A stretch of DNA of 64,000 nt from Pomacea canaliculata (Eukaryota; Mollusca; Gastropoda; Architaenioglossa; Ampullariidae), in the NCBI RefSeq assembly GCF_003073045.1, contig NC_037597.1, positions 28,759,927-28,823,926 of the forward strand. Direction: 5' to 3'. The notes beneath the pieces were generated by a model. It was not told where the DNA came from. It was given only the letters and a program-made list of their open reading frames with translations, and did not search any database. This document shows, piece by piece, positions 7,201 to 60,123 of the stretch. Both the position numbers and the translations under genes were made by a program. Numbering within the stretch: the first letter of the stretch is position 1; each line of letters opens with the position of its first letter.

Positions 7201-7344
7201 CTTGCATGCACTCTTAAGAGGCAGTACCTCTCTGCATTGCTCTCTCCATTTTTCTTTTGATTTTCTCTTCACATATCACTCAAGGTTTGCACATTTCTTT
7301 TTTTACACATCACATATATCGCCATCTCACTCTCTTACTTTATC
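4276..7344. other. Non-coding stretch: probable 3' UTR and intergenic DNA
   Basis: No gene recognised. Visible structure is limited to short local duplications: a block around ctaccttgagtcaaggga at about 5410 and 5500, aaaagaacagccttcatttt at about 6510 and 6570, and a segment containing taatgcttactgccaa at about 6960 and 7080. Open frames here are short and show no conserved motif. Confidence 0.5.
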
Positions 7345-7530
7345 TTGGCAGTCCGGTGGCACAAAGGTTAGCACCTGTCGCCAATACTGTGAGGGTTGGC
7401 TGTCCTAAGTTCAGCGCTCATCTTCGGCACGCTGTTTTTTCTTTGCATGTGGCATCTGTTTACAGGGCTGGCTGTTTGCTGTGATATAGCTTTAGTTGCT
7501 GGCTCCCCCACCCCTCTTACTTTATCTCCG
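7345..7530 (+). mobile_element. tRNA-derived SINE with LINE-type tail
   Basis: The head reads cagtccggtggcacaaaggt, resembling a tRNA A box (tggcacaaagg); a degraded B box lies near cctaagttcagcgctc. The tail contains ttgctgtgatatagctttag followed by ttgctggc, nearly the same as the LINE 3' tail near 61880-61930. A tRNA head plus a borrowed LINE tail is the normal SINE design. Boundaries are approximate and no target duplication was identified. Confidence 0.7.
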
Positions 7531-8164
7531 CATCCAACTTTAATCCATATGTCTCAGCTGTTTCCGTACCTCTTTCTTGACCTTGATTCATATTAACCAT
7601 CGCCTCATCGCCTCATTGCCTCATTGCCTCATTGCCTCATTTATCTGCCTTGATCCACACTCCAGTTACCCCAGATGTTGTCTGGCAGATGTGTCTTCCC
7701 TACTGTCCAGACATTATCATCTGGCAGTGGGCTGTGGTGCTATGCTGTCTTGCAACACTTAAATAAATGCAGTTTTCATAGTGAACAACATCGTTGTCCT
7801 TGGAAGGCCTTCCTTTGCACAGCTGCACAGACTTTTGTCATGTCTGGTATGTTTTTTCATGATCCCCCAGTCACAACAGGTTCCACATTCCATTATTTGT
7901 GTGTGTGCATATGTGTGTGTGTGTGCTGACATGACCAAATACACATAAATATTATTAAATTAATTCATCTTATGAATTGAATCTCTGTGAGATTCCCAGC
8001 AGCAGATTTTTGCCCAAAAAAGTTGTATTTATGGTCATGAAATTACCTTCAGTTACGCTACTGAATATTGCATAATTTCTTTTTAATGTGTTGTCATACA
8101 TGTTTATCAAATCCTACCCTGTGATGAGATTCCAAATATATGATATCTTCAATGAATTTACTTG

Positions 8165-8180
8165 TATATGGAATAAATGA
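8165..8180 (+). promoter_or_regulatory. Possible polyadenylation signal
   Basis: An aataaa hexamer at about 8172 is followed by GT-rich sequence and could end a long 3' UTR of the upstream gene. Many other aataaa hexamers occur by chance, so this is weak. Confidence 0.2.
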
Positions 8181-8199
8181 TATTGTGATATCAAAATCT

Positions 8200-9960
8200 C
8201 TTTTGGTGTGACTGCAAGAGCGGTGGTGATGTATTTGTTCACAAATTTTCTGAAAGCATTAGCTTGCCTGGTCTTCATGCACACTTGTGTGTGTTGTGTT
8301 AAAAATCCTGATTCTTAGGCTCACATTTTCCTTGTCTTGATGTTTGATGCTTGTGCAACCAGCAGTGTTTGGCTGTTTGGTGACTGCATGACATGGTTTG
8401 ATGTTTATATTAGGCTTTCCTTGATGCTGCCTAAAATGCCTGAATTTAAATGTCTGCTATGCCGCGGCCACTTTTAATGCCTTTTAATGTTTTCAGTGTA
8501 TCATCGTCACAAACTGCATACATCACATTTTCTATATCATCATCGTCGTCATAGTCAACTGGAGGAACACTGTGGTGACCTAGCGCTGATGTTTCTATCC
8601 TAGCGCTGCCAGCTCTTGTCCTGGATGTACTAGCCTTACTGTCTCCCTTGCACCATACATAAAGGTTCCCACATCTCCCATGTTGTCATGAAAATGCCCG
8701 CATATTCGTAGAGAACTCGTTTCCCCTGAGCTCCTCAATCTTTCCTAAATCTGGGCCAGACGTAAAGCCTCCCTTACATTCGTAAAGCTTTCTTTGCATT
8801 CACAAAGAGTGGAGTGGATGGGAGCAGCGATTGCGGAGGATGAGCGCAGTTCACGTGGCGACAGACGACAGACGACAGGTGTGCGGTCTCGCGGCGCTGG
8901 CCACGTGCAACACTAGAGGCGGGTACTTCCAACAGACCCCACCCCACCAGCCTCCTCGATAGACGATTCTGCTATAAACAAACTATGATACACTTCTTGA
9001 TACATAACAACACTGACACGGCCGGCTTTTGACATCTTGGAGGTCATGAGTCGAATATTTGTGGATGTACAGTACTTTTAATCGGCTCATGTTTCTCACG
9101 GATTTTTTTTTTCGGTGGGGGGCCGGGGGTCGTGAGGGTTCAGCTTGTGTGTAGGATGAGACAGGAGTGACGAAACAGACGAAACAAGAAATATCGAAGC
9201 ATGTGTGTGGTGTTGCCGCTCATGTTCTATACAAAACACCTGACACCCTGTAACCCTTGCCACCCCTCATACCCTCTTCGTTGCTGGCATGGCGTAAAAC
9301 ATCACAAGCACTAACCCTTCCCATTTCCCGACAAACCCGTGACCTGTCTATGAAATGAAAACCATCAGCAGCAAGCGGCAGTAGTGGCAACCACAGGACC
9401 TCGAAGTTTTCTCCTGACCCGAGATTTCTGTCTCTTTGGACGGTACTGCGGTGTTGGGAGACTTGTTTTCCTTGGTATGAAGGTCTTGTGAGAGAAACGT
9501 CACTGGGTGGCCTATACGGGTGTCGCTATGTGTCCTTGCCTCCAATGGAAGTCGATGATCACTCGCCAGCCCCAGCCCCTGAGGTGGGAGGGTGGGGTGG
9601 TGCATGGATGGAGGAATGATTCCATGAGCCCAGCGACTGTGGTGACACAGGAGACAATCATACTCTCAGGCTAGGACAGTGACAGCGACAGAGATGACAC
9701 AGGAGACGGTACATGTTACGTACAGAATGTCTGTGGAACACGTACACAATATTTACTGTTCATATCTGTTAGTCCATGGAGGGCGACAGACTTCAGGTGT
9801 TGGATGTTTTCTACTCCGCTCTCCATGACGTGGTGTGACCTTGAGTTTAAAATAAACTCCACGTCATTCCTATTTATAGCGAGAAACTCCGTGTTCCACC
9901 TCTTCCCTTTCTAACAACAACGGCTAGTCAAGCATTTCAGGCCACAGGCGTCTGTACTCT
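8200..9960. other. Intergenic stretch, partly GC-rich
   Basis: No exon was recognised. The 8800-9150 part is richer in CpG than the surroundings and could hold a promoter. A minus-strand open frame at 9348-9605 has no recognisable motif or splice context, so I do not call it. Confidence 0.4.
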
Positions 9961-12192: not shown

Positions 12193-12735
12193 TACAAGGG
12201 TCGTTCAAAAAGTTCTAAGCCTCACCAAGAAGGAGTTGCAGAAACAAGACAGCTTTTCACAATTTTTCTAAATAGTCCATCCTGACATCAATGTACTTGG
12301 TCCAACGACGCTCAGCCTTTTTCAGTTTTCTTGGGCCCCATCTAGCAGGCAGCTTGCTCATCTCCAAGATCTCGGTTAAAACAGTGTGGGCTGAACCAGA
12401 ACTAATGCCTTTGGACTTAGCTATCTGCTGGACAGTAATATGTCCGTCATTCAAAACCAGACGGTGATTGACATCAACTTGATCATCAGTGGTTGAGGTT
12501 TTTGGTTGACCTGACCGAGGGTCATCTTCTGTGCTGACCCTGTCCCGCTTGAATTCAGCAGCCCACGTGTTCACAGTTACATAGGAAGGGAAGTCCTCAG
12601 CAGGTGTCTGTACCATGTCCTCATGGATTTCCTTTTCTCTTACAGATACTTTATGACTGCTCAGACCTGTTTTGTACATTTTTAGATTTGTCTCACTACC
12701 CTTCACCTGTGTATGGGCCTCACCCACACACAAAT
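12193..12735 (-). mobile_element. Mariner-like transposon with internally deleted transposase
   Basis: The minus-strand frame 12257-12733 carries the N-terminal helix-turn-helix part of a mariner transposase (EIHEDMVQ, SYVTVNTWAAEFKRDR, EDDPRSGQPKTSTTDDQVD, HITVQQIAKSKGISSGSAHT, LPARWGPR). It then jumps directly to the family's C-terminal tail (ERRWTKYIDVRMDYLEKL followed by stop). The whole central DDD catalytic domain, normally about 200 residues, is missing. The left end carries a terminal-repeat-like sequence, acaagggtcgttcaaaaagt, next to a TA dinucleotide at 12191-12192. I could not find the matching right terminal repeat. The deletion derivative keeps an open frame across the junction but cannot catalyse transposition. 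Confidence 0.75.
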
Positions 12736-23574: not shown

Positions 23575-23630
23575 ACCAGACAAGGGTATCAGGGTATCAG
23601 GGTATCAGGGTAATCAGGGTATCAGGGTAT
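23575..23630. repeat. Short gggtatca repeat
   Basis: About six copies of agggtatc with one taatc interruption. A gactgact run precedes it at about 23220-23270. Confidence 0.7.
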
Positions 23631-23764
23631 CCCGCTCTCTCTTGCTCCCAGCTCGACCTGTAGCCGCCTGCAGCCAGCGGACACGGCGCTGTACTTGCGA
23701 GACCCAAGTCTGCGGCGACTTGCAGATAAGGGAAGCATCAACGCCGACACCGTTACCTGTAGGC

Positions 23765-24180
23765 GGGTACACTGCCACGTCCATCACGGACACCGCCACG
23801 TCCATCACGGACACTGCCACGTCCACCACAGACACTGCCACGTCCACCACACACACTGCCACAGTCACCACGGACACTGCCACGTCCATCACGGACACTG
23901 CCACGTCCACCACGGACACTGCCACGTCCATCACGGACACTGCCACGTCCACCACGGACACTGCCACAGTCACCACAGACACTGCCACGTCCACCACGGA
24001 CACTGCCACGTCCATCACGGACACTGCCACGTCCACCACGGACACTGCCACGTCCACCACAGACACTGCCACAGTCACCACGGACACTGCCACAGTCACC
24101 ACGGACACTGCCACAGTCACCACAGACACTGCCACGTCCACCACGGACACTGCCACAGTCACCACGGACACTGCCACACG
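23765..24180. repeat. 21-bp minisatellite, about 20 copies
   Basis: Unit gacactgccacgtccaccac + g, with gtcc alternating with agtc. The period divides by three and the unit lacks stops in most frames, so both strands show frames of 166-224 residues (for example DTATSTT repeats). These frames are mutually overlapping and have no splice or domain support; I do not call a gene. Confidence 0.9.
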
Positions 24181-24184
24181 GTGC

Positions 24185-27100
24185 GGGGCCACTAGAGGGA
24201 GGGAGGGGTACATCAGGAGGTGTTGGAGAAAAGGGGAGATTTGATGGGGGAGGGGACGAGGAGGTGTGTTCTGATTGAAGGAAAACATTCACAGCAGCAA
24301 CACGTTCGTCTGCTGTTCACTGCTCACTAGGGGGCGCATCGTGTTGCTGTTTTCACGCGCTGAGGCACTGTAAGGGATGTGCAAGCGAAACTGCCATCTC
24401 ACCCTGCACTTTATACTCTCAAGACAGGATACTATTTCCCACAGAAATAGGAATGTATAATCTACTTCCGTTCTCGAGATCAAACACAGAGACAAACGTC
24501 GCTAATATTTCTCGTGTGTGTGTGCGCGCGCGCACGAGCTTTGCCTTCTCTGGTCTTCCTTGCAGAAGAGTGTCTGGAAGTGGCAGGGCGCGTAGGGTCT
24601 GTCCTGACTACTTGCATCTTGTAGTCAGGCTGACAAGGGCTGCCGAGAGACGAATGCCTGAATATGCCCCCTACTTCAGGCTAATGTAGGAGATGGGGGG
24701 CGGGGTGGATGTAGTTTGCCGAGCCAGCAACGCAGGTTAGGTCCCGGCAAAGATGCCAACCGTGGTGTTGTAGTACCCAAGTAGCTCCTGTAACATCTCA
24801 TTTGCATGTTTAGCTTATTCCTTGTTACTCCTAGAGAGTCCGCCATAGGTTCCCACGTCCTTTGCCTCGCTCTCTACTGTTCTTTTCCAAGTCGGTCCCC
24901 CAACTCTCCTCTTCCCCTGAGGGTTCCGGTCAAGTCCCTGCCTGGCAATGGTGTCAGCTGGTTTGTGCAGGGTGTGTCCTACCCAGCCCCATTTGTGCTT
25001 TGTGATGCCTTAACTAGTGGCATTCTGGTTGGTTCTTTTCCTCAGGCTGGTGTAGGTTTTTTTCAGGCCATCTTATTCCCAGTAACGTGTAGCATTGGCG
25101 TGACCTGTCACATGTAGCATTGGCGTGACCTGTTACTGTCGGCATGGATTTCAATACAGATGCCCATGTAGTACGAAGAAGGGTAAGGGTAGAGCAATAG
25201 AAGTAGAGAGAAATGTTTCTGCCACTCTTTACTTATTTTTGTTAATCCTTAATTTCACAGTAACACCCAACCTCGTTCGTATTTCTCCTCCTTAATTCTA
25301 CTAACAGTTCATAGTTTGCACCCTCATTTGCAATACTAATTAGTTTTTGCAAAGATAGGCACTGTCATGTGCAACACTAATATTAGTCTCACTCTTATAG
25401 GCACCGACATTTGCAATACTAATTAGTTCTTACTATGATAGACACGCTGTTCGCTAAGCATGTTTACATAGTTTACAAATTGCAATTATCAGTACTAAGA
25501 TATCAGTAGCACACACATCCAATGACTTGTAACGGATCAACTGGCACATTTGGGGTTTTGTACAACCACCTATGCTGAGTTCAAAAATGTAAAGAAATCT
25601 GCAATGAGCAGAAAACTTCCCTTTTTCTGCCCCAAAATTCAAAAAATCATGTGTTTTTTTTCAAACTAAATGTTTCCTTTTTGTCCAAAGTTCTGTATTT
25701 AACAACCGCAAGAAAAGATCAGTTTGTGATAACATCTGCAGTGTCAGACAATAACTAGAAGCACTACAGGTAGCGGGGTTCATTTCTAGTCACGCGGTCA
25801 ACGACAATCTTGCTTCCTGCGACATGTCGGCATAAAGTCTCTTGACGATGACAGCTCCAATGTCACCATCCCTTGCATCCATCCCATAGACTGATTGTGC
25901 TGCCTCACTCCCTCGTCCTGACACAAGACTTGGACTCCCTGAGAGTGGCAAGGTATCTGACTGATGAAGGGCTGAGTGACAAGCTGCTGGACTTCTTCAT
26001 GTGGAAGGTGCTTTGTGAGAGGTGCTTCTAGTGTGCGACCTCCATTGATAGCAGTCTTGCAACGTTTAAACATTCTCCTTCAGCTTGGGAGGTCGACATT
26101 CTCTAACTTGCTGTTGAGACCCACCAGCTTGCTTGGTGATAAGCTCCACTGGCTGCCTTCCTATAGGCTTCATCGCCATCTGGAAGTATCCACTGAAGAA
26201 CATTTTTCTGATGGCCCAGGATGCGCTCCGTGTCACTATGGGTCGTGTTATGTTCCTGCAGGCCGATGATAACAAACTCTGTCATTACTAAACGCTGCTG
26301 AGGTTGATTTCTGGAAGAGGATCATTGTCGGCAATGAGTGGAAATCGTTCTGCAGAAAGTGGCGACGATGCTGTCAGTCAATGTAGTTGCAACTGGTCCT
26401 TTCCACGGTGTGGGTCCTTCAGCTGCACCAGTGAGCGTGTCGCACAGCTTCAGCTGCACCAGTGAGCGTGTCGCACAGCTGGCGGACTGGAAGCTCATTC
26501 AAGTGTAAAGAGAATTGAACCACTGCGGTGTCGTTTGGTCAAGAAACAGTTGTTTTATTATTGGTGTTATTTGTACATGGTGTAAGGTGTATGGTGTGGG
26601 TCTAAATTGTGTTCATGCTTCCATTTGTGTTTGGTGCAGCAGGACGTAGGCTCAGTCAACACTGGGGTTGTTATGTGTCAGCAATTCTCAACTTTGACAC
26701 ACAATGCCACAAGACAAGAGCACGACCTAAAGCCTAGCAACCACACGTTCAGGTTGAAATCACGTTGTGTAGCAGACAAGGAGGAAACGCACGTATAGCT
26801 ACGGGCTTCTGACGTTCCTACGTCTGGCAGCTACAGTCGTGAGTGACAAGGTACAACCTACCTGAGCCGCTCTTTATTCTCGGCAAAAACGCAGCAGCAG
26901 CAAGAAGAAGTGACGTGGAGCTACTGGACCGTGTCCACCGATTGTGTCAGCGGTGTGTCTTGTGTCATCTTACAGTGTCTGAAGAACTGTCGTGGAGCCA
27001 CTGGACCGCCATGACCGCTTGTGTCTCTGAGACTGTCGTCTGCCATTGTGTAGCGTCATAACACAACGTCATTCGCATCAACACTATGACGACATTGCTG

Positions 27101-27265
27101 CGTCAAAAGTCTCTCTTAAACACGTGTTTAAGGTCTCTCAAACTCAATAGTCCAATACCCAGAACTGACCTGTTCAAGACGAGCCTGATATATATTCTGG
27201 CACTGGTCTTTGGAACGACCCTCCCTCCGATCTCCACAGGACGGACTCCAGTATGTACAGGGTCA
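24185..27265. other. Intergenic stretch
   Basis: No exon assigned. At 26405-26475 a 35-bp block (cttcagctgcaccagtgagc...) is duplicated in tandem. Minus-strand frames near 25800-26280 could be a decayed element but I cannot name a family. Confidence 0.4.
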
Positions 27266-27274
27266 AAGTGGGAC

Positions 27275-27580
27275 TCCTACATCACCTACAGCACCTACAG
27301 CACCTACCGCACCTACCACACCTACAGCACCTACAGCATCTACAGCACCTACCACACCTACAGCACCTACAGCACCTACATCATCTACATCACCTACAGC
27401 ACCTACAGCATCTACAGCATCTACATAACCTACATCACCTACAGCACCTACAGCACCTACAGCACCTACAGCATCTACAGCACCTACATCACCTACAGCA
27501 TCCACAGCATCCACAGCACCTACAGCACCTACAGCACCTACAGCATCTACAGCACCTACAGCACCTACAACATCTATTTC
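27275..27580. repeat. 9-bp minisatellite (cacctacag)
   Basis: About 34 copies of cacctacag or catctacag. All long frames here are repeat artefacts. Confidence 0.93.
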
Positions 27581-27844
27581 ATTCCTACTTATCCTACCGA
27601 CGAAGAAAACATGTAGCATAGGTCGCTACTGTTGTAGCCAATAGTAAAACAAAAGCTGCCAATCACCTAGCAACACCGTGTTTGTACATATAAAACTTTC
27701 TCTTTGTTTTGATTCCTTCTTCTGAATGAATGTAGTCTTTTCATTTCTACTGCTACTCCAGGGCTGGATGTCAAAAAAAAAAACAACTTTTCTTATTCTG
27801 TTGTGGTGGGCGGAACATGATCTAGTCCCCACGATCTGTTTGGC

Positions 27845-27950: not shown

Positions 27951-28739
27951 GCCATTATCTGGTTATGCCAGAGCTAGACACGACTGTCAATATTTTGTGG
28001 CTAGTCAGGCAGAAGGAAACCACTGCGACTCCCTGCTGTCCAAACATAAAATTTGTCGATTGTACGATTTGCGATTTAAAAGATAAATTTCATTATTGGA
28101 TTTTATATTCTTGTCTCGTGTTAACTTCCGAAAACGATTGGCTTTAAAATATTTGTGTACACTATTCTTAAAGGCCGAAGCTTAACTAACTGATGGACTG
28201 CATCAACAAATGATGACCTTTAAATGTAAGAATCCTTATTTGTTTAGTAACATTTGTCTTCAAGATCTTGTGGCCATACCTCCAAATGTCTGCGATTATC
28301 CGTCACTGGCATTATTGTCATTCGTGAGTGTGAGGCCAGGATGAGCAGGCAGACATTAGCAACTCACGATTGTGCTGAGCTTCACGAGAACAGCAACACA
28401 AAACATGTCATTACACAAAATGTAGCTACAAAGTGTGGACCTCTGACAGTTCTAACTTCATCAAAGTTCTGATCATGTGTTGGAAAACACGTTGTTTGTC
28501 AATGAAGCATGCGATGAACATCAAACAGGAGTTACAGGACCTCCCGGCGGGGGAAGGAATGCCCCATCCACGTGACTAACTGAAGGCAGTTTCAACAGAG
28601 GTGACCTGAAGTCAGAGAAATAAACAAAACTATTCTTGTAGATTTATTCAAACATGTTACAATGTCATGTGACTGGCTTAAGTGCTGTGCAGTGTCATGT
28701 GATTCGAGCATTTCAGGTTTGTATCGTTCCCGGACAGTG

Positions 28740-29990
28740 CACCACACACCCTGCAACCAGAGGATGTACACAGAGATACTGGCAACGTGATGTACACAGA
28801 GATACTGGCAACGTGATGTACACAGTGATACTGGCAACGTGATGTACACAGTGATACTGGCAGCGTGATAGGCACTGGCAACGTGATGTACACAGAGATA
28901 CTGGCAACGTGATGTACACAGAGATACTGGCAACGTGATGTACACAGAGATACTGGCAATGTGATGTACACAGAGATACTGGCAACGTGATGTACACAGT
29001 GATACTGGCAGCGTGATGTACACAGTGATACTGGCAACGTGATGTACACAGAGATACTGACAACATGGTAGGCACTGGCAACTTGATGTACACAGTAATA
29101 CTGACAACGTGATGTACACAAAGATACTGACAACATGGTAGGCACAGGCTAACGTGATGTACACAAAGATACTGGCAACGTGATGTACACAAAGATACTG
29201 GAAACGTGATGTACACAAAGATACTGGCAACGTGATGCACACAAAGATACTGGAAACGTGATGTACACAAAGATACTGGCAACATGGTAGGCACTGGCAA
29301 CGTGATGTACACAAATATACTTGCAACGTGATGTACACAGTGATACTAGCAACGTAATGTACACAGTGATACTGGCAACGTGATGTAAACAGTGATACTG
29401 GAAACGTGATGTACACAAAGATACTGGCAAAGTGATGTACACAAAGATACTGGCAACATGGTAGGCACTGGCAACGTGATGTACACAGTGATACTGGCAA
29501 CGTGATGTAAACAGTGATACTGGAAACGTGATGTACACAAAGATACTGGCAACATGGTAGGCACTGGCAACGTGATGTACACAGTGATACTAGCAACATG
29601 GTAAGCACTAGCAACGTGATGTACACAGTGATACTGACAACATGGTAGGCACTGGCAACGTGATGTACACAGTGATGAAGGCAACGTGATGTACACAGTG
29701 ACACTGGCAACATGGTAGGCACTGGCAACGTGATGTACACAGTGATACTGACAACATGGTAGGCACTGGCAACGTGATGTACACAGTGATGAAGGCAACG
29801 TGATGTACACAGTGACACTGGCAACATGGTAGGCACTGGCAACGTGATGTACACAGTGATGAAGGCAACGTGATGTACACAGTGATACTGACAACATGGT
29901 AGGCACTAGCAACGTGATGTACACAGTGATACTAGCAACATGGTAGGCACTGGCAACGTGATGTACACAGTGATACTGACAACATGGTAT
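28740..29990. repeat. 26-bp minisatellite, about 1.25 kb
   Basis: Unit gatactggcaacgtgatgta + cacagt, about 26 bp, more than 40 copies, with a frequent variant in which a unit is replaced by acatggtaggcactggcaac. The minus-strand frame of 420 residues and its companions repeat every 78 bp (three units) and have no domain. A second, small block of the same repeat is at 37645-37785. Confidence 0.93.
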
Positions 29991-32094: not shown

Positions 32095-33096
32095 TCAGTT
32101 AGTAAACATAAAACTCATAATTGTAGCAGCAAACAAAGCGCAAGTGGAGACCAGCCAAGCTTTTTCAAAAAATTGCAATGGCAAAGATGATGGCTTCAAG
32201 GTTTCAGAGGACTTAGTCCCATCTGTAACATTGCTACTGCCATCTAGACTTACATAAGAATTGCGAGAAACATCCTGATCAGTACCAAACTTGCTGCTGC
32301 TGCTGTAGCCTCCTGGAATAATCTCAGCTAAAATGTCCATCTCCGTGAACAGGTCTATGTTGAGCTGAAACATTACTCGTGTTTCATTCACAATTTTCTG
32401 AAATGTCTCCGTGTCCAAAATGAGACCGTTTAAACGGCCAGAGTAGAAATCCTTGAACTTTTTTAAGTTATCAATATTTTCAAACCTGTAAAAGCTAAGC
32501 CCATCATTGTTCTCATCGCTGTTGTCGTTATTATTCAATTTGAGATTCAGGTGCTTGCTGAGCTTGTAGCGAAGGATTTGGCCACCAGAAAGATCCCCTA
32601 GATACCGGCCATAGCAATGAGCAATGAGTGCTGCAGGGTCAGTCCTCCCTAGATACCGGATGCGCTCCACATATTTGTGTGCAGCAAAAGTACACTTGGC
32701 CTTTTTTGCCCACTCTGTGCCAAGGAAAAATTCCAGGTCTTTTTCAATGGCCTGCTTGCGGTTTAGCTGGACTGGGAAGTAGACAGCCCCCAGAATTGGA
32801 TGTTGTTTATTTACTTCCTCTTCCATAGCTAAGTAGATATGGTAAAGATCAGCGAGGAAAAGTGAGTATGACTGCCGAGTTATGCCACCACCAATGACTT
32901 TCAGCATAAAGGTGGCTTTTTCAGCAAGTTCATGCAAGTCTTTAGACCCATTTTTCATGGCTTGCTGAAGCATATCATTTTTCTGTGCACTGTCCTCTGA
33001 CTCAGCAAGGTCTCTTACTCTGGACTGCTCTTCACTTTGAGTGCTGTAAGTGTTATCTGCTTGTGAGCTTGACCCAACTTCAGTGTGACCATCCAT
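32095..33096 (-). CDS. HMOX1: Heme oxygenase, tail-anchored, single exon
   Basis: One uninterrupted minus-strand frame of 333 residues. It cleaves heme to biliverdin, CO and iron with electrons from cytochrome P450 reductase, normally on the ER membrane. His55 (KDLHELAEKATFM) matches the proximal heme ligand; the signature YGRYLGDLSGGQILR spans 162-176, with Asp168 matching human catalytic Asp140. ADLYHIYLAMEEEV (82-95), AVYFPVQLNRK and FQLNIDLFTEM are further family blocks. Residues 312-331 are hydrophobic, ending in FTN: a C-terminal tail anchor. The N-terminus is about 30 residues longer than human HMOX1, polar and Ser/Glu-rich, and an Asn-rich insert (NNNDNSDENND) lies near 188-198. The start context atcATGG is good. 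No introns are present, whereas vertebrate genes have several; all key residues persist, so the gene looks functional. Confidence 0.95.
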   Translation of the reverse strand: MDGHTEVGSSSQADNTYSTQSEEQSRVRDLAESEDSAQKNDMLQQAMKNGSKDLHELAEKATFMLKVIGGGITRQSYSLFLADLYHIYLAMEEEVNKQHPILGAVYFPVQLNRKQAIEKDLEFFLGTEWAKKAKCTFAAHKYVERIRYLGRTDPAALIAHCYGRYLGDLSGGQILRYKLSKHLNLKLNNNDNSDENNDGLSFYRFENIDNLKKFKDFYSGRLNGLILDTETFQKIVNETRVMFQLNIDLFTEMDILAEIIPGGYSSSSKFGTDQDVSRNSYVSLDGSSNVTDGTKSSETLKPSSLPLQFFEKAWLVSTCALFAATIMSFMFTN

Positions 33097-42504: not shown

Positions 42505-45500
42505 TGTAACGTCGTCACGATACAGCTGTCTCTCACACACACACACATGTAACGTCGTCACGATACAGCTGTCTCACACACACACACACACATGTAACGT
42601 CGTCACGATACAGCTGTCACACACATGTAACGTCGTCACAATACAGCTGTCTCTCTCTCACACACACACACATGTAACGTCGTCACGATACTGCTGTCTC
42701 TCTCTCACACACACACACGTGTAACGTCGTCACGATACTGCTGTCACACACACACACACGGTGTGTGATCTGTACACATTTACATGTAACTCACAACTAC
42801 ACATCCCAGTAATTCGTCGTCACCACTTGTTTGTTTGTCCGTCCCTCGTACTATTGCCTGTGTCCGTGTCTCATTCCTGACGTAAGCGCTAAGAGCTCTG
42901 TAGGCGTGTGAGCATGCGCATTACAAATCTTATAATAATTATTACTATAAGAGATCTCATTGATCAGGTGAGTGACATCTCTACAGGTGACGAGTGTCCT
43001 ACAGGTGGCAACAGCTACAACAGGGACTTGGGACAACACGATGCCGGTGATGTGATGACGGACATTTATGTCTCTGGACTGCTGATTGTTTGCTGAGACC
43101 AACTCAGCCTCCCGCAAAGTTGTCGGCTGTCACGTCTCGGCCAACCATTTGCTGTTTAATATCCGAAACGAACCACGATAATATTCTTAAAATCAACAAT
43201 AGACGCAATAAATTTGTTACTTAGTTACTTTTTATTTATTTATATTCCTATATATTTAGGCCTTCGACCTCCAGTTGCCATGACTTGGCGCCAATAAACT
43301 GAAAACACATCAGACCATAAACTAAGCTTTTGTACCTCCGTCAACACAGGAGTTCGCATCGTCTGCTTGTCCTTTTGCTATTTTAGTGTTCAATAGCTAA
43401 GCCACAAGCCACTTTGTGCTTTGGCCTCGTTCTAGAAGTCAACGTGGGGACCAGTCATCTCAAGAAAGACGTCCGTGATGTGATGGTATTATGTCCGTCA
43501 GACGGGAGGACAGACACCTTGTGACAACACAAGATACATACCTGTGCAAAACATATGATCAGAAGGAAGATTCCAATACCGCGCAGAACTGAATACGCAA
43601 AAAAGTCCATCAGTGCCTGACGACAACCGGCGGTGTAGAGGGTGACGCCCATGAGGTGGTTGTAGTTGTAGTGCAACTGCCGCTGGGTCACGTGATGGTG
43701 GATGCAAGGTCGCGGGGACGCGGGGTCACAGCAGCTGAAGGGAACGTCGTCGTTGAGATAAGCGTCGCCAACCTTGAATCTGAGGCAAGTGTCACTAAGG
43801 TGAGTTCAGCTCATCTCACACTTACATCCGATGGTGGCTTGGCAGGCGTGAGTGTCACTGGATAGGTGTGTAGGTGGTTGTATGTATAGAGGATAGGTGT
43901 GTAGATGGCTGTGTGTATAGGTTGTTGTATGTATAGAGGATAGGTGTGTAGATAGCTGTGTGTATAGAGGATAGGTGTGTAGATGGCTGTGTGTATAGGT
44001 GTATAGGTGGTTGTGTGTAGAGGATAGGTGTGTAGATGGCTGTGTGTATAGGTTGTTGTATGTATAGAGGATAGGTGTGTAGATAGCTGTGTGTATAGAG
44101 GATAGGTGTGTAGATGGCTGTGTGTATAGAGGATAGGTGTGTAGATGGCTGTGTGTATAGGTGTATAGGTGGTTGTATGTATAGAGGATAGGTGTGTAGG
44201 TGGCTGTGTGTATAGGTGTATAGGTGGTTGTGTGTATAGAGGATAGGTGTGTAGATGGCTGTGTGTATAGGTGTATAGGTGGTTGTATGTATAGAGGATA
44301 GGTGTGTAGGTGGCTGTGTGTATAGGTGTATAGGTGGTTGTGTGTATAGAGGATAGGTGTGTAGATGGCTGTGTGTATAGGTGTGTAGGTGATTGTATGT
44401 ATAGAGGATAGGTGTGTAGATGGCTGTGTGTATAGAGGATAGGTGTGTAGATGGCTGTGTGTATAGGTGTGTAGGTGATTGTATGTATAGAAGATAGGTG
44501 TGTAGATGGCTGTGTATAGAGGATAGGTGTATAGGTGGTTGTGTATATGTGTTTGTATGTATAGGTGGATGTGGGGATAAGTAGATAGATGGTTGTGTGT
44601 ATCAGTGGATAGGTGAATAGATGGTTGTGTGGATAGGTGTATAAATAATTGGGTGTGTAGGTGGTTGGGTGGATAGGTGAGAGCGTATTTTTGTGAGGAG
44701 GTTCTGACAGTAAAAATCTGAATATACATCAATGATGACACAGATGTCCTGTAAACTAGTCACTTGTAAAGGTTCGACTTAACCACGATAGGTTTCCAAT
44801 CACGTTGGGGGATTCATCTTGTCTTACTAGTTTGCGATCTATGTTCGAACCGGGTTGAGAGCTTTTTCCTAGTTTAGAGCAAACTCAAGATCGTTGATGA
44901 TCACTGATCGTTCTGAACCAGACGGGGAAGGATGGCAGACGGCTTATCGCTAGCTAGTGAGTGTGACAACGGCGCTGACCGATCGTGACTAGAGCTCACC
45001 TGTAGCTGCCACACCTGGTGCAGTTGTCAATCAGCTGTCATGACCAGGTACCGGAAAGGACAAGCAGAACCTTCATCACACTTGTGACAAGACAGAAACG
45101 CACCTTTGCACTTCCTTGGGGTCGGCCACCAGCACCTCCTGCGGCACCCAGGGTATTTTGAACCAGTCACCGTAGCCTTCGTCCCCGCAGCATTTATAAT
45201 TTATCTGCAGGATGTCCACTCGCGTCTTGATCTCGCCATCCTTGGAGTAGGCGGCCAGCGCGCGCCTCAGACCCGCGCGGAACTGGTCCGGCAGCTGAAC
45301 CAGCTGTCACAGGACACGTCACTTCGGTCACTTACAGATTTCTATACAGCTGATTGGCTTACGTCGCAGCCATCCAGTGATCTGCTTTTCCTTTACTCTA
45401 CCCTCTCCTCTACATTTCTCTACACAGCTTTCTCTACAATCTACCATCATTTTGTCTACACGATGTCCTAAAAGTTATTAGAGCGTTTCAAGAGAGAGAG

Positions 45501-51532: not shown

Positions 51533-54500
51533 TTAGTCTGTCACTATCTGATGGGGTTCTGCACGCTGGCTCCATTCTCGGAAGGCACCCTAGAAAAAAC
51601 AGGCAGGAAACATACACTTGTCCAAGACCGGTGTTATCACCTTTGGATATGTATGCATGTATGATGATGTGTTTTGCACTGTGTGAGAGCTAACGGCAGC
51701 ACGTGTATACATGAAACCCATGCAGGTGCTCAGGAGAGCTCATCACGCACATTTAAACGTGGAAGACTGTTGTGGCATTCCGAAGTAATCCTTGACAGAA
51801 GTAACACATCGGCGCTATGTGTACACTGGGAATCCAATAGCAGACCTTGCCTTACCTTGTCAAGGTGACTTTGTAACCAATTTCAATTCTGTATTTTATG
51901 CTTTATATAACTGTGTTTGGTGAATTTTATCTATACGTTTACCTAGAATTTTGGAAAGCAACTCTGTAACAAATTGTATGCAGCAAAACTGCCCCAATGT
52001 TTGTCACTGTAAGAGAAAACACTTTTTGTTCCTCTTCACAAGCACAGGCTATTTAAGTGATAAACCAGGAATTATAGAAGTTACCTGTTGTTTGTTTTGG
52101 GTTGTTTTTTTTTTTGGGGGGGGGAGAATCTGGATCATCTCAGCTTCCTCTAGCAGACATCTGAGAGCCATTGGACAGTGCCAAGTGCACTTTGTGTGAG
52201 CAGCAATACAATTCAGCTTGAATGATCCCCAGGGGGAATTCAAGACAGTGCTTGAACAAGCAATAATCTACACATGTACATGATATAAAAGAGATAATAT
52301 AAATGTACAAGTTGAAATAGTTGTCTCTTGCTCGCGCACACACACACACGTATTCCTAACAGCAGATACAGTTACCCCAGGCCACCTCAAGATGATGGCT
52401 AATAGAGTTTATCAAGTGATTGGCACGTGGAATGAATGAGTTCCAGAGACGATTGGTTCTGAATACAGGCATTGATTACCTACAGCCAGATTGCATGAGT
52501 GAGAACTCACATGCCAACACACAATCGGAAATAGAGAGGATGCATGATGCCTTCCTGAGGATTTGCTGATGACAAAAGGCTGCCATTTCCTTCTTCCTGG
52601 TTCCAGTGATCTTGGAACATATATTAACAAGGGAGACAAGAGTGTTCCCTAGAGAGAGGCTGTGGAACCAAGAGATGAAAGAAAAAGTGATGACACTTTC
52701 AATGAAGGATTGATAGAACTGAGTGAGGATTACAGAGCTGACAGAGAAAGATCTGAGTTTCCGTAGGAGGTACAGCTTCCCCACAGTTGGTGAGCAAACT
52801 CTATGAAGTGACTTTCAACCTATGGTATTCTGCTTATAAATCTGTGTAGATGCCTTTGTGGGGACCCTAGTGACTCCCTTCTATATGGTCATACACTGTG
52901 AAGTTCTTCTCCCACGTCACTACTGGTAAGTAGTATGTGATGGTGTGTTTCCCCCTGTGTGTGTGTAGATGGTGGAAGTAACTCCTAGTTCTAATACTCC
53001 AATTACACATGGACTAATTTGAATTTCATGGACTAGTTCCTTCATCCTGAACACTTTGTGATCCGGCATTAACTAAGTTGGCCAGATTTTACAATAAGCT
53101 TAAAACTGTCATAGATCTGTTGGTGTATAATTTGAGAATGAAGTAGCAACTGTGTACATAGCCACAAACTGATCTTAGATGTATCTGACATCTACAAAAG
53201 AACAGTGAATAGCATTTGACTGGATGGCTGTGTGGATGACAGTGTCATTGGCTGAAGAGAGTTAACGGTTGTTGGTGAAGCTGTTTTTGTAAGCAACCAC
53301 TTAGAAATGTGTTTATATATCAATATTTGGACAGTAGAGGTATAAGAATTATTGTGTATGAAAACAAAGCAAAGAGTTGAAAGGAAGATTACCTGTGAAC
53401 TAGTTATGTATAAGAGGTGATTTCTTCATAAATTATGACCAAATTTTGCTTATGTAAATTCTGTGTTATTGCTAACTTAATTAAGAAAAGAGAAAGAAGA
53501 AACACAAAATTTATTTTTGGGGGGCTGAAGCACAAGCAGATATTTGTTTTGTTGTGTGAAAAAACAGGTGTGGACATAGTGTATGCACTTGTGCTAGGTG
53601 AGTCCTTGATATAAGTGTAGCTCTGTGTTTGTTAAAAACAAATCTCCAATGACATGTACATCACTGATAATTGCCCATCATATTCTGCTTTTAATTGTAG
53701 TTTAGAAGCTGAAGATCTAGAATGATGTTATGAATGTCCATGGATACTCCTAATTAACACGTGGCTTCAGCTCTACCATTGGTCTTGATTTCTGTTTCAT
53801 TGCATAAATCTCATTTCTTTGTCCTCTCCTCATTTACGTTTACATTTAGCCTTTGACTATTGTCCTGGGTTAGCACTGATTTCAGATGATGAATCTGATA
53901 CTTATGAGATTTGTGTGCATATGGTAGCACAAAGCCTTGTTCATCTACCTTGATAGCCTTTTTGATAAATATCTTTGAAAAGTCTGGTGCTTTAATATTT
54001 AAACTTAACACGGTAGATATACACTATATCTTTACCCAATGAATGTCCTACCTACCTGACACACTGTAGACAGGCACCATCTCTGTACCAAGTCTATGTC
54101 CTACCTATCTCACATGGACATTGTAGACATTGTAGTCTCTGTACCAGCTATACGTCTTAACTGATACTTACATTGTAGACAGGCACCATCTCTTTACCCA
54201 GCAGATGAGCTGCAGCAGCTATGCCACAAGCAGTCATAGCTGTCTGACAGGTTGCCACCAGTGGTTTTCCCAGGTCAATATTTTCAGCATCAAACACTGC
54301 AACAATACAAACTTTATCAATTTGTAAAACAAAACTTACATTTTTTCCTACTCTTCTTATGATCCCATTACCTTTACTGCTGGCATGACCCAAACTTCCC
54401 CTTGGTCACCTCTAAACACCGCACCTTTTCTTTCGAATTCATCAGTTTGTGCATGCATAGGTACATATCTGTATAAAAGTATGTTGGTTGTGGGTCTCAT

Positions 54501-57500
54501 TTAAGACTTAAGCACATAGAAATTTTCCTATGGACCTATTAAAAAATCTCTTACCCACCCTGACATCCAAATATATACTGGCATCATTCTCACTCTGTCA
54601 CTCATTTACTCTCACACACATATTTAAGCACATAATTAACACATTAACCTGCCTACCCAACCCCCAAAAGTTAAAAGTAAAAACCTATCAGATAGATCTA
54701 GAAAGTTGCTTGACAGAACTAGAAATCTGTGGGTCAGAACTGAAGTGTATGGAATAAAACTAGAAATATATCAGGTGGCCAACAGTTACCATTCCATACT
54801 CTGTGTTATCAGCTGCAGTATCATGCACAACATACATAAGCAAAAGTACAACAGCAATAACGATGACTTCTGCAAAATGCTTCCTCTACATTTTTGAGCC
54901 TTTCAAAATCACAGTTTTCTCATCAATAATTAAGTTGCCCAAGAGCAACAATGTCTCCTAAATTATAAAGCTCAATAACATACACTTCTTCAGTTCTTGT
55001 GGAGGTTTGAAAGTTCCTTTATCCTCAAAGAGCGTAGAATATGGAATGTTGCATGCCCCAGGAATGTGGCCCCCTTTAACATAGAAAACAAAGCTGCATT
55101 ACGTCAGTGTCAAGGGCAAAGTAAGCAACAGCAAACTAGTGCTAAATGGATGATAAATGACATCAACACCAACAATGACACCAAAAGTCAGTGGGTATAT
55201 TGTACATGTACAGGGAGCTTCAACAACATGTTCATCTGTCGTGCAGCAAGTGTAAAAAGGACAGCACCATTGCTTTATTTTCAAGTTTTGTATGGCTGAT
55301 ACAAGTGACCAGTTGTTAGTGTTTTTGCTACCACCATGGCTGACACAAGCAATGACTGCTGAGTGGCAGTGGTCTCTAAGTGTTGCTGTATGAGACTGCA
55401 AGAAAGTGATGGCTGCATTCTGGAAACACTCTCGATGGTTGACATGTTGCAAGTTCTCACATGTTTTCATCATGATTACAGCTGCACAGTGTTTGACATG
55501 TTGCAAGTTGCTGCATGTTTATCTTGTATTAAAAGGTTTTGATGCAGGTCTGCCTGCATGCTTCAGCATCTCATTCCCAGTCCACATCATACAGCAAATG
55601 GGTCAGCTCTCAAAGTATGAACTATATACATATAGCCCATCATACAGCAAACATGCAAGCTGTCAAAGTATGAACTATATGCATGTAACAGGCTTGCATC
55701 TCCTATCATCCATGATCATGCGAAATAGACCAAAAGTATGCCAAAATATAGCAAAGTAGGCACTGTAAACTTGTTGCCTTATTATCCTACATTCTGTCTA
55801 AAAAGCTATATCTGTTGTGTCCAGATTGTTTTTGGTGCTACAATATTTTATTTTTAATGGTATACCAGTATTATTTTAATAATATGGCTTTTCTAATTGT
55901 ATCTTTCTGAATAAGCAATCTGAAACAAATATAGTCACCTGGCCAAATCTAAAAGAACACCGCACTCATTTTTCTATTTTTCTGTTGTTGCTCTTGCATC
56001 TGGTGCACCTGGCACCTGGTATACCTATCACCCGTCTACATTGTGACAGATGTTGCCAGTCATGTGCTTAATGGCACCTGGTATAAAGTCTACATTGTGA
56101 AAGAGGGAACTCTCCAGTCAAGTGCGTAGTAGGTTCAGCTTGGAGACAAAGACTGCAGGTTGTAAGCTTACTAGGGCCGGTGAAGGAAAAACTCCTTCTG
56201 CCCACTGAGCAGTGAATAAGGTTTATCTTCTACATGCCAAGCTCTAGCTTATGGTTCATCATCACTAAAGCATGAACCTTTACCTTTTGCCTTTCTCCTT
56301 TTACAGAGGTTTACCTGGTTGAAGGTCATCAGAAGTAAAGAAAACCTGTGGTGTCCTTGAGTCCACAACTTGTTCAGCTTTGCTGGTCAGGTTTTTCTGC
56401 ATATCCTCGAAGTGCCGCACTAGGCCAGAGATGTATGTGGACTGGAATGATTTTCTCTGGAACAAGAAAAAGCAAGAGCTAGATAAAGCTCAATTAGTTT
56501 ACCTGTGCCAGAAGCTTCAGTTCCAAAGAACTCCTCAGGCTCTCTTGCATCAGCAACTTGCCAGGACTTGGCCTTAAGGTTGTGTGCCATGGCCTCAAAG
56601 TCTCGTACAAGTTGTGCATTAAAGGAAGGATTAAAATTGGACCGCTGCAACACAGATTAACAAATATAGCAATATGATTTCCCATCATGATGTACAGATC
56701 TCTCACATTCTATAGTATTCTCTTCTAGACTTACTTAGCAAAACCCTAATTCTATTCTGCCACTAGATCTTTGTTTCTGATTATTAGCCTTGAACTTGAG
56801 ATATCTCTGCCCTTCCATTGAAAACGTGATGATAAACTAAGCTAAAGGCCCAACGACATCAGACAATAAGTTGTGTATGAAATGTAGCCACAAACTAGAA
56901 TGTGAAGTTGTGTATGAAATGTAGCCACAAACTAGAATGTGAGGCAAAGTAACAGGCATAAGATTAAACTGTAAAAACAACTGCTTCACTCACCTCAACT
57001 TTAGGTACTTCTACAGTCACATCATAGCCATCAAGTAGCCATTTTCTAAACCCTCCATCTAGTACTGACACCTTTTCATGGCCAAACAACTGAAATAAAT
57101 ACAGACAGGTGTGACAAGAATCCTTGGCTTTTCTCCCAAAGTTGCATTCTTCCTACACACAGCTGATTTCTAGCATATAGTATGGTAAGGCTTTTGTCAT
57201 GATCAGTAAGACAGTATGTCACTGCAGTAATTCTCTGTGATATTTAAATGTTTATGAACATATATATATATATTTATCTTGAGTTTTACACACTTCTTGC
57301 ACATGGTATGGTAATGCTTTTATCATGATCAGCAAGACAATATGTCACCGTGGAAAGTCTCTGTGGTATATATATCATGTATGCTACTGGCTCCTCGCAT
57401 ACAGTAATTAATGTTTCTATCAGAGTCAGTTAGTCTGACTACATTCTATGGTATTCATAGCCTTTAAGACTGATTACATTAAGACTGATTAATTGCTGGT

Positions 57501-60123
57501 ATTCATAGTCTATGAGACAATCAGATTAGAGACTATGGTATTGATAACTACTGGTTACCCTCTATGGTATTCAGAGTGTGATTACAGTCTTTGGTATTTA
57601 TAGTCCATAAAAAGTCTGATTATGGTATTATTCAGTCTTGTTACAGTCCATGTGTCCATAAGACAATCTGATTATACTACTATTTATAGTCAATAAGACA
57701 TTCTGATTACACTCAATGGCAGGGCTTCTGCTTACGCAAAAAAATTGCGTACAGTACGCATTAAAGTTCGGAGGACCCCTTCAATTTTCGTCAATGGGGT
57801 CCCAGGGGACCCCTTCAAATTTGGGCGAAGGACAGATACAAAATTGGGTAAGTGTAGTGTCTGACATCGTAGCCCAATCTATTGTTGTCGTCTGCTGCAA
57901 AGTGAGAGTAACTTCCCTTGCACTGAGATTTTTCCCTTACCGGGAAGAGTTTCATTAACCTATTTCCAAGATGTCGTTGACAGCGTGGTTAAAATCATCG
58001 TATCAGAAGCGGAAAGAAAGTGACCACTAGTGAGCATAAGCTCATCACAAATGCTTGCACACAAGCAAAAATGTAAAGGTCGTCCCATGAGCTTTTTCAG
58101 ATTGTTAGAGAGTGAGGTGTTAGAGACTCACTTTTCTCAAAGCCAGCTGAAAGTGAGGGCAATGCCCATCTCATCTCCCTCATTGCCTTACCTTCCCCAG
58201 CCCTCTTTGGAGTCAGCACTTATTCCAACCAGCTGGGTTGACTGGTGAGAATGGACTGTGCTACACAGGTATCAAAGCAGCACACCTTTCTGTTTGAGTG
58301 CCAGCACTTTAACCACTCGGCTATTTGCTCCCCCAGACACACACATACACACATGTACATGTGCACAAATGGGTTAGTGCAAATAGCTCATACCCGAAAA
58401 AGCCACCATGTTTTGAGAGCAAAGGCTGTGTTGGACCTATCATAGGTCACAACATGTGTGTTGTTACAAATCCCAAGACCTTCCACGTAATCCTGGAATC
58501 GGTTGGAATCTGGTATGGGATACTTGTGGAGTGATGTTGGAGAGGCTGGACACAAGCCATGAAGACTGAAGTAAACTGCCTCAGGAATGTGGGATCTATA
58601 AATAGACATAAAGAACAGCGTTTATGGGATGCTAGATGCATGAAGGAGTATAAGTACAGCATTACTGATGTGACATAAATTATGGCATGTGTTAAACGTA
58701 ATATGCCACAAGCTATTAGACTGAAATGCTGATTGTCACTGAGGATTCGCAAACACCGCCAGAATATGTCCGACGAACTTTAGAGAAACTAAAAGTTTGA
58801 GGTAGTACAAGCTTTAAGAGTCAGGCATAGAGAAATAGCTGTTTAGTACCAAACAGAAAACTGAACAGAACAATTACTGCTCCAGCCATCAGGTAAGCAC
58901 AAAAGTCTGTTACCTGTGTCAAGTGGCACAAATAATATATAGTCACACTAAACTTTGTCATGCAGTCAGGTGTGTAATGCCACACCACACAAAACATTAT
59001 CATTGACAGTGCCAGATATGCAACCCCAACAGAGAATACTTGGTGCAGCATGACTAAAAATATATTTGCATCAGCCATATTTCTAATTCAATGTCTCAAG
59101 TTATCCCCTTAACTTACCCTTATTTACAACTTTTAGAAGCTATTCACTATTCTTTTCCCTTACAAATAAAAATTCTCTAACGCCTTCACTAGAAATGGGA
59201 AGTAAAGATAACTCAGCAGTACTTCTTTTTTCACAAATAGGAGCAGACTTCGAAAATTGGAAGATAATCCACAGTTTTGGAGTTTATATCACAGCCTTAC
59301 TATGGCATGACTAAAAGCATCTTGGGATGTATGGCTACTTTATAGGCTGCATACCTATAGATGATTAACTGTAAGAGCTATAAACTTTTAATTGATTCTG
59401 AGTATTTCAGGCAGTTATTCCGAAACCAGAAGATCGTGTCCACAGATATGTTATCTGACGCCATTACACTGTGCATTATCAAATATTCCTTCTGCATAAT
59501 CCCTTTGCTGTCTCACTCATTATTTACTCACTAATTAGCTCTCCTTGCAAATGGCAGGCAACACAAAGTTTCAATCACTGCAGATATATTGACCTGAAAA
59601 TACATAACTAGAGACCTGAAAATACATAAGTAGTGATCTGAATATACATAACTACACACTGATTTGAAGATGCATAACTATAAAGCAATGGCAGCTTCCC
59701 CCTAAAAAATATTGTGTTGCTTAGTCATTCACTATTAGCATAGAGTTTGTAACCCCCACCCCAAAACACACACACACAAAAGCCAAACATCTTCCTATGC
59801 CACTGTAAAGAGACCTAAGATATTTAACCAGATACATAAAATACACCTGAAAATATATAAAATAAACCTGAAGGTACATAAGTAGTGAACTTAATATGCA
59901 TAAGCAGTGACCTGAAGATACATGACTAAAGACCAGACCGCTTGGGGATCTGGATAAGTCCTTACTCCATGTAGAACTCTTTGTATCCATCCACCTGAGG
60001 ATCAGGTGAGGCAGAGGCATCCAGCACTCGAAGAGGTCGTTTCTTGGAACCTGCTGTCAGTGCCAGTAGTTGGTCACGTAGCCAGTGAGTGGTCACCAGT
60101 GTCCCCAGACGTGCTATGGTCAT
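51533..60123 (-). CDS. MPST: 3-mercaptopyruvate/thiosulfate sulfurtransferase with mutually exclusive exons 4 and 5
   Basis: Minus-strand exons: 60123-59966, 58595-58394, 57089-56994, 56644-56503 (4) or 56456-56315 (5), 55073-54984, 54296-54172, 51589-51533. With one of exons 4/5 the frame is continuous and gives 289 residues (human MPST 297). The enzyme moves sulfane sulfur from a donor to an active-site Cys and then to an acceptor. Domain 1 has HIPEAVYF and HVVTYDRSN (Asp where an active rhodanese has Cys), then TWWLFRLFGHEKVSVLDGGF. Domain 2 has the exon 4/5 segment with Arg186 (matching human substrate-binding Arg188), GHIPGACNIPY, KPLVATC with catalytic Cys246, and the tail GAFREWSQRAEP. 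The active loop CQTAMT differs from CGSGVT (MPST) and CRKGVT (TST), so the preferred donor is uncertain. The start MTIARLGTLV lacks an obvious targeting peptide; an upstream exon is possible. Confidence 0.9.
56315..56456 (-). CDS. MPST: Sulfurtransferase alternative exon 5
   Basis: A 142-nt exon with the same phases as exon 4, acceptor gttccag and donor accag|gtaaac. It encodes 47 residues starting RKSFQSTYISGLVRHFEDMQ and containing EQVVDSRTPQVFF. About 18 of 47 residues equal exon 4, so it is an old tandem duplicate. Including both exons shifts the frame and soon meets a stop. Confidence 0.82.
56503..56644 (-). CDS. MPST: Sulfurtransferase alternative exon 4
   Basis: A 142-nt exon, phase 0 in and phase 1 out, acceptor gttgcag and donor cacag|gtaaac. 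It encodes 47 residues starting RSNFNPSFNAQLVRDFEAMA and containing WQVADAREPEEFFG. It supplies the beginning of the catalytic domain, including the Arg of the DAR motif. Confidence 0.85.
57720..57960 (+). other. Possible dispersed repeat in a sulfurtransferase intron
   Basis: Contains acgcaaaaaaattgcgtaca, a small inverted repeat, and the duplicated phrase gaccccttcaa around ggggtcccaggggacccc. An 80-residue frame crosses it without a known motif. It may be an element end. Confidence 0.25.
58150..58338 (-). mobile_element. tRNA-derived SINE
   Basis: On the minus strand the head reads gagcaaatagccgagtggtt + aaagtgctggc, like the A-box half of a tRNA-Leu/Ser, followed after about 35 bp by a weak B box (gctttgatacctg). 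The body runs on to ggcattgccct. Boundaries are approximate. It lies just upstream of sulfurtransferase exon 2's donor side, in an intron. Confidence 0.6.

Follow-up and report, generated by a model that had tools for sequence, protein, structure and literature searches.

The question raised by this locus, a 64,000-nucleotide stretch of the Pomacea canaliculata genome (NC_037597.1, positions 28,759,927 to 28,823,926; here called the window), is whether a single sulfurtransferase gene could supply two enzymes by choosing between two versions of one internal exon. The coding part of the gene was rebuilt on the minus strand as eight exons running from 60123 down to 51533, and the product is a two-domain rhodanese. 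Exon 1 (59966..60123) carries the start ATG and ends in phase 2; its 5′ end is placed at the first ATG. Exon 2 (58394..58595, phase 0 out) encodes a piece of rhodanese domain 1, and exon 3 (56994..57089, phase 0 out) encodes the end of that domain together with the start of the linker. These are followed by exon 4 (variant A, 56503..56644) and exon 5 (variant B, 56315..56456), and then by exon 6 (54984..55073), which is 90 nt long, has phase 1 on both sides, contains the motif GHIPG and ends in the donor GTATGT. The catalytic cysteine and the loop CQTAMTAC are encoded by exon 7 (54172..54296), and the C-terminus with the stop codon TAA by exon 8 (51533..51589). All seven introns have GT-AG borders. 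In intron 7, on the minus strand at 54063-54098, a stretch of 12 residues may be a short, incomplete copy of the last part of exon 7 (75 percent, E 0.59); one 15-base piece is present twice in the window.

Exons 4 and 5 are each 142 nt in length, share the same phases (0 in, 1 out) and encode segments of 47 residues of which 18 are identical. Inclusion of exon 4 (isoform A) or of exon 5 (isoform B) gives in either case 290 codons including the stop, or 289 amino acids. When the two exons are joined a stop is met at codon 227, within exon 5, when both are skipped the stop falls at codon 180, and when the intron between them is retained it falls again at codon 227, so that among the combinations tested (one, both, neither, intron retained) the frame stays open only with exactly one of the two exons. 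This bears out the initial annotation, which had described two adjoining homologous 142-nt exons of equal phase, either of which could be used singly and which together break the frame.

The global BLOSUM62 score between the two encoded segments is 81, and 5000 shuffles of one exon gave a mean of -20 and a maximum of 28. When 127,720 frames of 47 codons on both strands of the window were scored against each exon, the partner exon stood at 81 and the runner-up at 19 (exon 4 as query) or 15 (exon 5 as query); no frame above 19 that could represent a third copy was found in this set. At the nucleotide level 70 of the 142 bases are identical, a level far below that of alleles, and in the window a single strong match exists for each flanking exon. 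Both observations argue against an artefact of assembly, such as two haplotypes placed in series; nothing was found in favor of this account, which we consider extremely improbable. The differences between the exons number 22, 17 and 33 at the first, second and third codon positions, respectively.

The similarity that remains at the protein level was compared with neutral expectation by evolving each exon under a simple base-composition model to the observed nucleotide divergence in 5000 runs. The observed BLOSUM score was reached in none of the 5000 runs started from exon 4 and in none of the 5000 started from exon 5, a result that, at a simulated divergence that is saturated, speaks for past selection and not for present use; the fraction of runs free of stop codons was 0.093 and 0.084 for the two starting exons. 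Since neutral evolution did not preserve the similarity, both exons look to have been under past selection at the protein level. An origin of the pair by chance or artefact was rejected on the shuffles, the scan of window frames and these simulations.

Past selection bears as well on the suggestion that only one of the exons is in use today and that its partner is a silent relic of the duplication. The acceptor of exon 4 has the poorer pyrimidine tract (pyrimidine fraction 0.65, vs 0.88 in the pyrimidine-rich acceptor of exon 5), a point in favor of a relic. Against this, both exons are open and bordered by GT-AG sites, their donors are identical (CAG/GTAAAC), and the protein similarity lies far above the neutral expectation. 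In addition, each exon retains family residues that are gone from its partner: over 42 aligned columns the residue of the vertebrate family is kept by variant A only in 3, by variant B only in 5 and by both in 11. We regard a silent relic as unlikely; one of the exons may have gone out of use recently. The difference between the acceptors suggests that one of the two forms might dominate.

The intron between variants A and B (56457..56502) measures 46 nt, against 349 to 2582 nt in a comparison set of only eight introns, namely the other six of this gene and two of an MPST paralogue described below (828 and 849 nt, hand-counted). It contains two branch-point-like motifs, CTAAT and TTTAT, with the A at +9 and +19 relative to the 5′ splice site. 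Some animals do splice introns of ~46 nt, for which reason a steric block to splicing of this intron is to be taken as likely and not as proven. In the portion of PMC7969005 available, a spacing of ~50 nt between the 5′ splice site and the branch point is proposed as the steric limit to simultaneous assembly, and the choice of only one of OGDH exons 4a and 4b is stated to be imposed by branch points that lie close to the 5′ splice site; any branch point in an intron of only 46 nt would fall under that limit. We infer that one exon would most likely exclude the other by steric hindrance, and that decay of misspliced messages would act as a safeguard.

The short intron might, on another account, be spliced from time to time, double inclusion then giving a regulated and unproductive message that is targeted for decay and acts as a partial off switch. 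The double-inclusion message would meet its stop at codon 227, with 59 nt from there to the last base of exon 5 and three junctions downstream, a position typical of targets of nonsense-mediated decay. The branch-point-like sites at 9 and 19 nt are, on the other hand, closer to the 5′ splice site than the threshold proposed in the available part of PMC7969005, and we hold such a switch to be very unlikely. On sequence grounds exons 4 and 5 are strongly supported as mutually exclusive duplicated exons because of their matching phases, the logic of the frame, the signs of protein-level selection and the 46-nt intron between them.

The gene had been labeled MPST-type in the initial annotation, and this description holds for the general architecture but not for the residues that define substrate use. 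The Pfam Rhodanese profile matches two stretches in isoform A and in isoform B, and the second domain holds the catalytic cysteine in both. The swapped segment aligns to approximately residues 153-199 of bovine rhodanese, a region that we take to comprise the end of the linker and, within the catalytic domain, the first helix, the first strand and the loop bearing the substrate arginine. Taken with the domain borders of the family, the alignment agrees with the earlier placement of the segment at the opening of the catalytic rhodanese domain, and it puts the segment at the position of the substrate-binding arginine region as had been proposed; the arginines themselves are absent from A and B. 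Arg188 and Arg197 of human MPST hold mercaptopyruvate, according to the excerpted text of PMC12926118. In the MAFFT alignment A has Glu and B has Val in the Arg188 column; in the Arg197 column, where neither isoform has an arginine, the residues are Thr (A) and Pro (B), and the HMMER alignment places a gap there in B. The loop that follows the catalytic cysteine reads CQTAMT, vs CGSGVT in human MPST and CRKGVT in TST.

The label MPST was rejected on these grounds, with both arginines absent and a loop that is not CGSGVT. TST has the better claim by whole-length score: the best solved relatives of isoform A are bovine and human TST at 216.6 to 212.7 bits, and those of isoform B are the same proteins at 209.6 to 207.2 bits, vs 193.1 (A) and 192.5 bits (B) for human MPST; two chains named only 'Sulfurtransferase' score 199.3 and 199.2 bits with A and 192.4 and 192.3 with B. 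Yet the CRKGVT loop is missing, as is Arg186 of TST, whose column holds Glu (A) or Val (B). When the C-terminal half of B is used alone, human MPST comes first, at 106.6 vs 105.4 bits for human TST, a difference of 1.2 bits; as the whole isoforms favor TST and this half favors MPST, the scores leave the nearer family unsettled. To judge from the aligned residues, the substrate of the enzyme is probably something other than 3-mercaptopyruvate.

A protein search of the snail genome with isoform A gave at least 13 matches at E values up to 1 (14 candidates scored), and among those found eight belong to the window gene, three to a separate MPST gene (C1) and two, both weak (E 0.04 and 0.32), to a further gene (C4; L019, approximately 5800-8450). 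The C1 gene has both arginines and the CGSG loop. It is built of three exons, and the equivalent of the swapped segment lies within one large exon. Its first intron is in phase 1 and sits about three codons from the boundary between exon 4 or 5 and exon 6 of the window gene, and the two introns may be one ancestral intron. The C4 gene resembles sulfurtransferases but is diverged; its exons are arranged in a similar way, and its loop reads CNSGMSSC. One recognizable exon-4-like stretch is found in it between the counterparts of exons 3 and 6, with 8 of 40 residues identical to A, 5 of 40 to B and 10 of 40 to bovine TST. Ungapped scans with A, B and TST missed even this recognized stretch, so that a second, diverged copy of the exon is possible there. 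The junction of the next C4 exon does not have the phase expected on reading the letters, and at this point the gene may be broken, or its letters may have been misread. Among these three genes the exon pair appears to be present only in that of the window, with the qualification that C4 may hide a diverged copy.

A search of the genome with the Pfam Rhodanese profile gave at least four places, one of which is the C1 MPST; the window gene was absent from the listing, which indicates that the search is insensitive to short exons and that further paralogues may exist. The other three, which were translated, are frames with a Rhodanese match above the Pfam cut-off: L002, L003 and L004, on contigs C9, C8 and C5, respectively. 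One scan each of prokaryote and viral contigs with isoform A gave 20 and 2 pattern-matching stretches, respectively, and no relatives among them.

Comparison with these families also gives an indication of the age of the pair. Over 42 aligned columns exons 4 and 5 have 18 residues in common, and mammalian TST is matched at 12 by A and at 13 to 14 by B; over 37 columns human MPST is matched at 10 by A and 12 by B. Against the C1 MPST of the snail each variant shares 14 of 48 residues, vs 19 of 48 between A and B. Because the two variants resemble each other more than either resembles TST, MPST or C1, the duplication most likely took place after the window gene had split from those lineages, and it is most likely old.

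Taken as a whole, the sequence very probably records a tandem duplication of one internal exon in a diverged snail two-domain rhodanese gene, which left two mutually exclusive versions of that exon. The 5′ splice site and the branch point of the 46-nt intron would be too near each other for the intron to be spliced; exon 3 would join either exon 4 or exon 5, the chosen exon would then join exon 6, and misspliced messages would be cleared by nonsense-mediated decay. One gene would in this way probably make two enzymes differing beside the active site, with the catalytic cysteine and its loop in common and with differences in the end of the linker, the first helix, the first strand and the loop on the active-site side of the catalytic domain. 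A fuller picture can be offered only tentatively and is, in our estimation, more apt to fail in some part than to hold throughout: a splice-switched sulfurtransferase lacking the substrate residues of TST and MPST, with an old exon pair, an unspliceable 46-nt intron, one catalytic loop and two alternative walls of the substrate pocket. In this picture the two forms might be adjusted to the tissue, or to stress from sulfide and oxygen as with the alternative oxidase (AOX) of the oyster, and many molluscs would have retained the arrangement.

Mutually exclusive exons are a well-known kind of gene structure, and we know of no duplicated exon in an animal TST or MPST. Animal TST and MPST resemble the snail protein in their two rhodanese domains, the catalytic cysteine and similarity over nearly the whole length, but their substrate arginines and family loops are not kept in the snail gene. 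Among the matches listed in the literature searched (duplicated or mutually exclusive exons; molluscs, gastropods), there was no report of such an exon pair in the sulfurtransferase/rhodanese family, and as far as we have seen its occurrence in this family and in Pomacea canaliculata is new. Elsewhere, as far as the accessible parts of the sources go, exons 4a and 4b of OGDH are mutually exclusive tandem duplicated exons in an enzyme (PMC7969005), PKM and PFKP are named as further enzymes with mutually exclusive exons of this kind, and 236 annotated tandem duplicated exon substitutions are counted in human, half of them internal and most of them ancient (PMC9741552). The snail gene is like OGDH, PKM and PFKP in having homologous adjoining exons of which one is chosen; it differs in the enzyme family, in an intron of 46 nt in total and in that its isoforms are predicted from the sequence. 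The nearest parallel, from what is available of PMC5589949, is oyster AOX, in which exon 10 is duplicated in tandem and two forms differ near functional sites, and which that paper describes as the first case in a mollusc to yield a stress-adaptive variant. Both are mollusc enzyme genes with a tandem exon duplication and two forms, but that part of the oyster report describes terminal exons with an alternative 3′ splice site and shows their expression, whereas in the snail gene an internal exon would be chosen.

The window contains other features besides the sulfurtransferase gene. On the minus strand at 32095-33096, ~18 kb from the sulfurtransferase, lies a heme oxygenase frame that runs without interruption for 333 aa and matches Pfam Heme_oxygenase at 194 bits. 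Human HMOX1 and TST/MPST are on one chromosome arm, and the neighborhood of heme oxygenase and sulfurtransferase is possibly an old linkage. At 12257-12733, also on the minus strand, a frame of 158 aa has a weak match to Pfam HTH_32 below the cut-off and in our judgment resembles the helix-turn-helix part of a transposase. Long repetitive frames at 23614-24292, 27086-27621, 28592-29924 and 43806-44741 resemble translated tandem repeats.

If both messages are made, enzymes of sulfur transfer would join the metabolic enzymes that are tuned by exon choice, in a host that is an invasive and stress-tolerant snail. The locus, being very compact, would allow steric exclusion to be studied in molluscs, and the two isoforms would form a natural pair of enzymes one 47-residue segment apart and with the same catalytic loop, which could serve as a probe of the determinants of substrate choice in rhodaneses.
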